A DNA stretch of 35,637 nt, taken from Candidatus Moranbacteria bacterium CG10_big_fil_rev_8_21_14_0_10_35_21. Lineage in GTDB: Bacteria > Patescibacteriota > Minisyncoccia > Moranbacterales > UBA2206. Location: contig PFCG01000001.1 in the NCBI GenBank assembly GCA_002773095.1, positions 1 through 35,637 of the forward strand, given 5' to 3'. The translations under genes and the position numbers were made by a program. The notes beneath the pieces were generated by a model. The model had not been told where the DNA came from and did not search any database. It saw nothing but the letters and a program-made list of their open reading frames with translations. Of this stretch, positions 2,198 through 9,161 are shown one piece after another. Within the stretch, counting starts at the first letter, position 1. Every line of letters starts with the position of its first letter.

Positions 2198-2324
2198 ATC
2201 CGCCATAGGCGGATTAATTTTTATACCCATTCATACTGAATGGACAAAAATTAAAATCCGCCAAAGAAAGTTTTATCTGCCTATTGTTATGCTATAAGCA
2301 TTACGGGCAGGCTCCTTGCGGATT
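2198..2324 (-). promoter_or_regulatory. structured rpsF leader made of overlapping inverted repeats
   Basis: On the - strand: AATCCGC (2324-2318), GGCGGATT (2262-2255), AATCCGCC (2215-2208) and GGCGGAT (2204-2198). A 55-bp imperfect palindrome spans 2208-2262. Confidence 0.6.
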
Positions 2325-2385
2325 ATGATTCCCTTATCCCCGAGTATTTGGGGCGAGAGAATTATGGACTTTCTAGATTAAAATC

Positions 2386-2414
2386 ATTCTAGCAGATTAG
2401 AAATGGATAGTCAA
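2386..2414 (-). promoter_or_regulatory. promoter of the rpsF-ssb-rpsR-efp operon
   Basis: - strand TTGACT-N17-TAGAAT with TGC directly before the -10 (extended -10). Confidence 0.75.
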
Positions 2415-2435
2415 ATTAAATTTTAAACTCTATAA

Positions 2436-2478
2436 CCCCGATAGCAATCCGTTGCGACGGATACTACGGGGCAGGCAT
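2436..2478. repeat. nested palindromic repeat, intergenic copy (element B)
   Basis: CCCCG atagca ATCCG ttgcga CGGAT acta CGGGG CAGGCAT. Confidence 0.7.
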
Positions 2479-2494
2479 CTCCGTCTTTAATATT

Positions 2495-3583
2495 CTATAT
2501 TTTAAATTCAATAACATCGCCATCTTGGACGATATATTCTTTACCTTCTAGTCGTAATGTTCCTAATTCTTTAGCCTTGCTCCAAGACCCAGCTTCCAGT
2601 AATTTATCCCATTGGATAACTTCAGCGCGGACAAACTTTTCCTTAAAGTCGTTGTGGATAGCTGTGCCAGCCATTGGAGCGGTCCAGCCCTTTTTGATGG
2701 TCCAGGCGCGAGTTTCATCTTCTCCAGTGGTGAAATAGGTCATTAATCCTAATAATTTGTAGGCCTCAACAATCAGCGTATCAATGGCAGAGGTGATGCC
2801 AAGTTCTTTGGCTTCTTCGCATGACATTTCAATTAGTTCTTCTTCTATTTTAATATCCAGAATTACAAAGTTATTTTTCTCGGTTAATTTTTTAGGAATC
2901 TTATAGGAAACCCCGTTAAATAGCTCCGCACCGACTTCGTCGGATTTAACGGGGCAAGCATTATAAACAAACAAAAAAGGTTTCATAGTGAGCAGGGATA
3001 ATTCACGAACAATAATTTTAGTATTTTCATCTTCCAAATCCAATTGGGTTTCATTAGCTAATACTCCAGCTTCCAAATTTTCTTTTATTTTATTTAAAAT
3101 CGCTAATTGTTCTTCGGCACCTTTAACTTTTCCGCGATTATCCTTCTCTAATCTTATTTTTACTTTATAGATAGTCTCCAAATCTGCCAGAATTAATTCA
3201 GTATTAATAATTTCTATATCATGTTCGGGATCAATTTTATTATGTACGTGAGTAATTTTTTCATTTTGAAAAACTCGAACTACTTGAGCGATAGCGTCCA
3301 CTTCTCGGATGTTGGATAAGAATTTATTACCCAAACCTTCACCTTCCGAAGCGCCCTTGACGATGCCAGCAATATCCACAAATTCTACTACGGCTGGAAT
3401 TATTTTAGCTGATTTTGACATTTTAGCTAGCTTATCAAAACGAGCGTCTGGCACCTTCACAATGCCGACATTGGGTTCAATAGTACAAAAGGGATAATTA
3501 CTAATATCCACCTGAACTTTTGTCAGGGCTTTAAATAAGGTTGATTTTCCAACATTAGGGAGGCCGACAATACCAATTTTCAT
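2495..3583 (-). CDS. ychF: redox-regulated/ribosome-binding ATPase YchF (OBG family)
   Basis: 362 aa; [22 protein letters not shown]...[32 protein letters not shown]-terminal TGS-like domain. Confidence 0.96.
2911..2960. repeat. palindromic repeat inside the ychF reading frame (element A)
   Basis: CCCCGTTAAAT (2911-2921) pairs with ATTTAACGGGG (2944-2954), inner CCGACttcGTCGG, tail caagcat similar to element B tail caggcat. Confidence 0.75.
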
Positions 3584-3613
3584 GATTTTCTAAAAATTAT
3601 TACGAATATACGA

Positions 3614-3642
3614 AGTTTATAAGAATAAGCTCATTAAATCAA
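3614..3642 (-). promoter_or_regulatory. candidate ychF promoter
   Basis: - strand TTGATT-N17-TAAACT. Confidence 0.45.
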
Positions 3643-3646
3643 TAGC

Positions 3647-3675
3647 TTGAGCAAGAAAAGGTTAAATGATAAAAT
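3647..3675 (+). promoter_or_regulatory. candidate promoter of the phosphomannomutase gene
   Basis: TTGAGC-N17-TAAAAT with TGA directly before the -10; divergent to the ychF promoter. Confidence 0.55.
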
Positions 3676-3704
3676 AAAGGTAGTAAATAATTATCAAGAA
3701 AAAT

Positions 3705-9087: not shown

Positions 9088-9161
9088 CCCCGTTAAATTT
9101 ACGCGAAGCGGAACTTATTTAATTGGGTTAAATTTCGCCATAGGCGAAGAATTTAATGGGG
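9088..9161. repeat. large intergenic inverted repeat with inner hairpin
   Basis: CCCCGTTAAAT (9088-9098) pairs with ATTTAATGGGG (9151-9161, one G-T); inner TTCGCCataGGCGAA. Confidence 0.65.

Follow-up and report, generated by a model that had tools for sequence, protein, structure and literature searches.

The window analysed here, a 35,637-nucleotide stretch of DNA from the genome of a Candidatus Moranbacteria bacterium (G000; 753 kb in 32 contigs, 94.85% complete), contains a ychF gene interrupted in frame by a short palindromic element (Table 1). The host ORF is recognized by the NCBIfam YchF model with 411 bits, well above the cut-off of 279. On the coding strand, the order at the element is GCTTG CCCCGTTAAAT CCGACGAAGTCGG TGCGGAGCT ATTTAACGGGG TTTCC, in which the outer arms form a perfect 11-bp stem (11/11 pairs) around two inner hairpins, CCGAC-GAA-GTCGG, seen on the other strand as the inner repeat CCGAC-ttc-GTCGG, and a weaker GC-GGA-GC. 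As single-stranded DNA, the copy folds with −13.9 kcal/mol (z = −4.8), and none of 200 shuffled sequences folded as well. The palindrome that a sequence-only reading had claimed within ychF is thus present, and the 17-residue minus-strand peptide assigned to it reads as stated. A search of window positions 2300-3700 against Rfam gave no match.

Table 1. Positions in the window of the ychF gene, its insert and the copies of the palindromic element.
Feature	Position	Strand	Basis
Host gene ychF (redox-regulated ATPase YchF), 362 aa	2495..3583	-	ORF and NCBIfam
ychF element core	2911..2954	-	arms CCCCGTTAAAT / ATTTAACGGGG; covariance model R1, 52.2 bits, E = 9.5e-12
48 nt coding for 16 extra YchF residues	2912..2959	-	29-homologue alignment, DNA comparison, 1JAL alignment
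Second copy, decayed, partly doubled, non-genic	9088..9161	+	fuzzy arms; R1, 29.7 bits, E = 3.8e-5

YchF is present in most of the 55 genomes searched, and 30 sequences, including that of the window, were aligned. The insert is absent from 26 of these, which read NVSDINQKL or similar at this site, and the insert or a close variant is found in only four (G000, G002, G009, and G031), which belong to four genera. It directly follows the Asn aligned to that of NVNE in PDB 1JAL, which we take to be the G4 base-recognition motif of the YchF ATPase family. Roughly 15-17 extra residues had been foreseen at the palindrome; they do lie exactly there, but the net excess of the carriers over their homologues is 14. 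AlphaFold2 models of three carriers (the window protein, L131, and L209) had a mean pLDDT of 36.7 and were discarded. Other inserts were also noticed in the ychF genes of relatives. Within the same taxonomic family, the YchF of G001 carries the same type of element in frame at another site, and in-frame palindromes of the GTAG type occur as GTAGGGACAGGTCGCGACCTGTCCCTAC in G010 (L084) and as GTAGAGACGCAAAATTTTGCGTCTCTAC in G029 and G031 (L085 and L086). With the GTAG-type palindromes, ychF thus collects palindromic inserts of several families.

The expectation that the palindrome should recur in other parts of the genome was borne out, and many of the further copies lie in frame within genes. 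Searches with fuzzy arms and a covariance model gave about 23 sites of the family in the source genome, and arm pairs with no more than two mismatches in total numbered 14, compared to none for three control arm pairs. The copies, mostly 40-56 bp in length, have outer arms CCC(C/T/A)GTTAAAT / ATTTAAC(A/G)GGG around two abutting hairpins, an arrangement equivalent to a three-way junction. Twelve copies are located inside ten genes: rmlD, tsaD (two copies), polA, tgt (two copies), elp3, ksgA, mnmA, ychF, tpiA, and an ORF of 136 aa. The insert length is a multiple of three in all 12 genic copies versus one of the 11 non-genic copies (Fisher p = 1e-5). Although three or four frames are open in most copies, one frame is preferred in genes, and 11 of the 12 genic copies share the orientation and frame that give HPVKS...FN(R/G)V or a close variant. 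Core enzymes would gain 16-20 residues in this way; the polA insert lies just before the VLQIHDE segment of DNA polymerase I, which is conserved in relatives. Intragenic hairpins of this strength are reminiscent of bypassed segments, and by this analogy the inserts might be skipped at the level of RNA or translation, as in mitochondrial byps or the bypassing of phage T4 gene 60, to give a protein without the insert. Bypassed segments, however, need neither a length divisible by three nor an open frame, both of which are found in the genic copies, and we consider skipping extremely improbable.

Some repeats resemble the family without belonging to it. The sequence at 2436-2478, which the sequence-only reading had taken for an intergenic relative of the ychF palindrome, has neither the GTTAAAT arms nor the two-hairpin layout, is not matched by the family model, and gives no better than E = 3.7 against the ychF copy. 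This GC-rich sequence, beginning 17 nt downstream of the end of the ychF gene, is a hairpin in its own right (z = −3.6), possibly a terminator or another repeat. Long-spaced ACCCCGTTAGAAAT...ATTTCTAACGGGGT pairs were also set aside from the family. Perfect ACCCCGTTAGAAAT-like arms around AT-rich sequence are present in the source genome at C3:228-284, C6:87-149, C18:30526-30622, and C30:28521-28619, and this repeat is related but distinct and apparently intergenic. Repeats of WOR-3 / Stahlbacteria, in which the same arms enclose some 40 nt of AT-rich sequence lacking the two hairpins, were set aside as a different repeat; at L121, L122, L183, L216, and other WOR-3 / Stahlbacteria loci, the copies are about 62 nt long, multicopy, and mostly non-genic. 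Separately, the Elp3 gene of the source genome (C18:19606-21324) has two further in-frame inserts that appear to derive from repeats, SYPPTSRSGREVCRAGEIKLNRINY and SFACHPERVKRVEGSNPIRFLDCTRND, and a PARNAT...HSVAGG motif, possibly another in-frame insert family, is shared by the unrelated proteins PolA (C17:7940-10756 of the source genome) and RmlD of G025 (L349).

Covariation was examined in the 50-nt class only (14 copies) because the MAFFT alignment of copies of mixed length misplaced the hairpins. In this class, 97.7% of the cells pair, and 14 of the 22 pairs show double changes. The covariation value of 0.425 exceeds that of shuffled alignments (0.108; 0/500) and those of slid versions (0.035-0.083), and one-sided (G-U) changes are seen in two cells only. 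The letters of the hairpins vary between copies while the pairing stays, and of the 25 copies located in long ORFs, 20 contain the two inner hairpins, compared to 3.5 expected. We infer that pairing is enforced on DNA, either in a folded single strand or by one arm serving to correct the other, more than as RNA structure.

Comparison with relatives provides the empty counterparts of several filled sites. The 17 insert residues of TpiA are found in none of 29 relatives (0/29), which read KK(I/V)KLGAQN or similar where the source genome reads KKI[HPVKSPTSRGAQQSNRV]KLGAQN. None of the relatives whose alignment covers that part has the first Tgt insert, located between NGV and KLS, and the second is likewise absent from the aligned relatives. 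The comparison at the DNA level is clearest for rmlD, for which an empty and a filled site are available within one genus: G031 reads GAAGTTAAGGCAGTGGAC, whereas G023 reads GAAG[TTCACCCTGTTAAAT...AACAGGG]TTAAGGCAGTGGAC, with 54 nt inserted, and the pair is compatible both with no target-site duplication and with one of 2 nt (TT). Most copies end TTCA-CCC...GGG-TAAA, and a host TNAA adjoins the insert. The same rmlD codon is filled in G000, G002, G006, G007, G013, and G023 by five hairpin sets, one of which is shared by G006 and G013 with different immediate flanks. Five hairpin sets at one site point either to repeated insertion or to hairpins being replaced as units. Nearly the same hairpins are found in two different genes, in the second tgt copy and the tpiA copy. 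A variant of the ychF element with two mismatches lies in a glycosyltransferase gene of G046 (family f7), near-identical ychF-type sequence is also present outside long ORFs in family f7, and a close relative of the variant is found within grpE of G086.

These distributions bear on whether the element moves at all. Each gene could have received an ancient insertion that descended vertically and was lost in most lineages, while the hairpins drifted under a pairing constraint. This would account for orthologous sites filled in several genera (four for ychF and six for rmlD), and the covariation is in agreement with hairpins able to change while paired. However, a YchF tree from which the insert region was omitted requires three changes to account for the four carriers, and supported branches force at least two of these. 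Among the sequences aligned, moreover, only the source genome has the TpiA insert and the two Tgt inserts. The likeness of the second tgt and tpiA hairpins and the recurrence of the ychF variant in an unrelated gene from a different family also argue against immobility, and the ancestral codons would need to have been restored many times over by exact loss. Accordingly, purely vertical descent appears very unlikely.

The codons of the ychF element diverge little. Among the four genera, its third positions differ in 3 of 90 pairwise comparisons and its amino acids in 12 of 90, whereas third-position differences in 314 other 15-codon windows of ychF have a minimum of 30 and a median of 49. The same pattern is shown by the rmlD copies of G006 and G013, with third-position differences of 1/16 versus 152/314. 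The low divergence is most simply explained by recent insertion of circulating variants because near-identical copies exist elsewhere; in ychF, it could also stem from short-tract transfer or from a constraint acting on the nucleotides themselves. With regard to a constraint, the conserved codons of ychF and rmlD would be in line with a ychF copy that has been co-opted and kept for a nucleic-acid function, as mRNA structure or a DNA site. The presence of nearly the same sequence outside long ORFs, as well as in the glycosyltransferase gene, is nevertheless what is expected of a circulating mobile variant, and G-U cells are almost absent, unlike in typical RNA helices, so that co-option seems unlikely. 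With regard to transfer, the ychF gene of G031 is a mosaic in which the element and about 30 downstream codons resemble the alleles of G000, G002, and G009, while both sides match its own genus, and short-tract exchange may therefore add to transposition. A stronger version, similar to homing, in which the element passes from species to species mostly through homologous recombination within the gene it already occupies, together with some flank, and less by new transposition, would also fit the identical ychF site in four genera. By contrast, the several hairpin sets at the rmlD codon and the similar copies with differing flanks in G006 and G013 are better explained by repeated insertion, and the TpiA and Tgt sites need true insertion; recombination as the main route is possible, although we do not favour it.

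The family extends beyond the source genome. Copies are found in 26 of the 34 genomes of the same taxonomic family, and the arms of the element occur in several bacterial phyla. At least 131 distinct copies with exact arms were collected from public genomes and relatives, a set that serves as supporting evidence only because it includes some spurious ORFs and unrelated repeats. Among the matches listed, 25 copies lie in ORFs of 150 aa or more, and 21 of these follow the PVK...FNG frame. The exact arms were not found in IMG/VR viral contigs.

Several known systems share some of these properties. The in-frame palindromes of Rickettsia and Wolbachia are short, reside in many unrelated conserved genes, and also have intergenic copies (PMC2229807, PMC10969869). 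The proposed likeness to Rickettsia palindromic elements (RPE) holds for behaviour, as the Moranbacteria element is also inserted in frame in unrelated genes (12 copies in ten genes) with a conserved peptide in 11 of 12 copies, but it does not extend to architecture. RPE are long stem-loops of 105-146 bp (about 150 bp), whereas the element described here, mostly 40-56 bp in length, forms a three-way junction whose conserved outer stem bears two hairpins that abut and vary between copies; the arms are found across several phyla. Intragenic GTAG/CGTC REPs are known in other bacteria, for example within DNA polymerase I (PMC3733652), and REPs are described as possibly mobilised by TnpA-REP enzymes (PMC8266576). 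REPs are likewise small palindromes, some of them inside genes, but the ends TTCA-CCC...GGG-TAAA of the Moranbacteria element do not carry the GTAG/CGTC tag. The bacterial MITEs (Correia/NEMIS, ERIC, RUP, and others) are 100-200 bp long and some are fused in frame to ORFs (PMC2229807). They are similar in having terminal inverted repeats, here arms of 11 nt, but the Moranbacteria element is much shorter and its hairpins vary strongly between copies. Its filled and empty rmlD pair is explicable without a target-site duplication, although the TT duplication would fit as well. IS200/IS605-like single-strand transposition is marked by subterminal hairpins and by insertion beside a short fixed target with no target-site duplication; most copies here are flanked by TTCA and TAAA with an adjoining host TNAA, and a cognate enzyme was not found. 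In the open-access literature on palindromic or MITE-like elements in Patescibacteria, Parcubacteria, and CPR, we found no earlier description of this element. In-frame palindromes as such are already known, mainly from Rickettsia and Wolbachia, and what appears to be new here is this structurally distinct family.

The enzyme that could move the element was sought among Y1 transposases. PF01797 (Y1_Tnp) has no match in the source genome at its 94.85% completeness, and it is present in 24 of the 34 genomes of the same taxonomic family. At 12 Y1 loci of relatives, no convincing adjoining element was detected (best R1 match, E = 0.37). A Y1/RAYT link was set aside since neither presence nor adjacency supports it, and this is a further difference from REPs mobilised by RAYT.

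Collectively, we conclude, with a probability of about 0.86, that the palindrome in ychF belongs to a non-autonomous mobile element, found in Ca. Moranbacteria and in further bacteria, most of them uncultured, which behaves similarly to RPE and has a different structure. Insertion relative to empty sites, a covarying structure, a bias in reading frame, repeated occupation of one codon, and copies that are nearly identical across genes and families are observed features of this element. The conserved arms and the two hairpins would let one strand fold as an almost fully paired three-way junction, on which a trans-acting enzyme, perhaps HUH/Y1-like, might act. Insertion is clean, beside a host T(N)AA, with TTCA carried at the other end of the element. 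Genic copies are seen only where the insert is open and a multiple of three, and such an insert is probably translated, almost always in one orientation and frame, as a short tolerated loop in a host protein that presumably still works. The ychF copy is one such insertion, within the nucleotide-recognition (G4) loop of YchF. More tentatively, the copies could represent an undescribed T-shaped superfamily of mobile DNA in Patescibacteria and other phyla, which revisits the same codons of core genes and renews each of its two hairpins as a paired unit, with the arms unchanged. If this is true, cells with reduced genomes simultaneously keep loops of 16-20 residues in several core enzymes, among them tRNA-modifying ones.

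Protein-coding palindromes have so far been known mainly from Rickettsia and Wolbachia, together with some intragenic REPs, and a distinct family can now be added from uncultured bacteria with small genomes. The many empty sites in close relatives make the entry into genes, the mobilising enzyme, and the preference for frame and orientation testable. The tolerance of core enzymes to insertion likewise becomes testable at the G4 Asn of YchF, in PolA, before KLGAQN in TpiA, and at two positions each in Tgt and TsaD. For annotation, unexplained inserts of 16-20 residues in the proteins of Patescibacteria may be mobile DNA.
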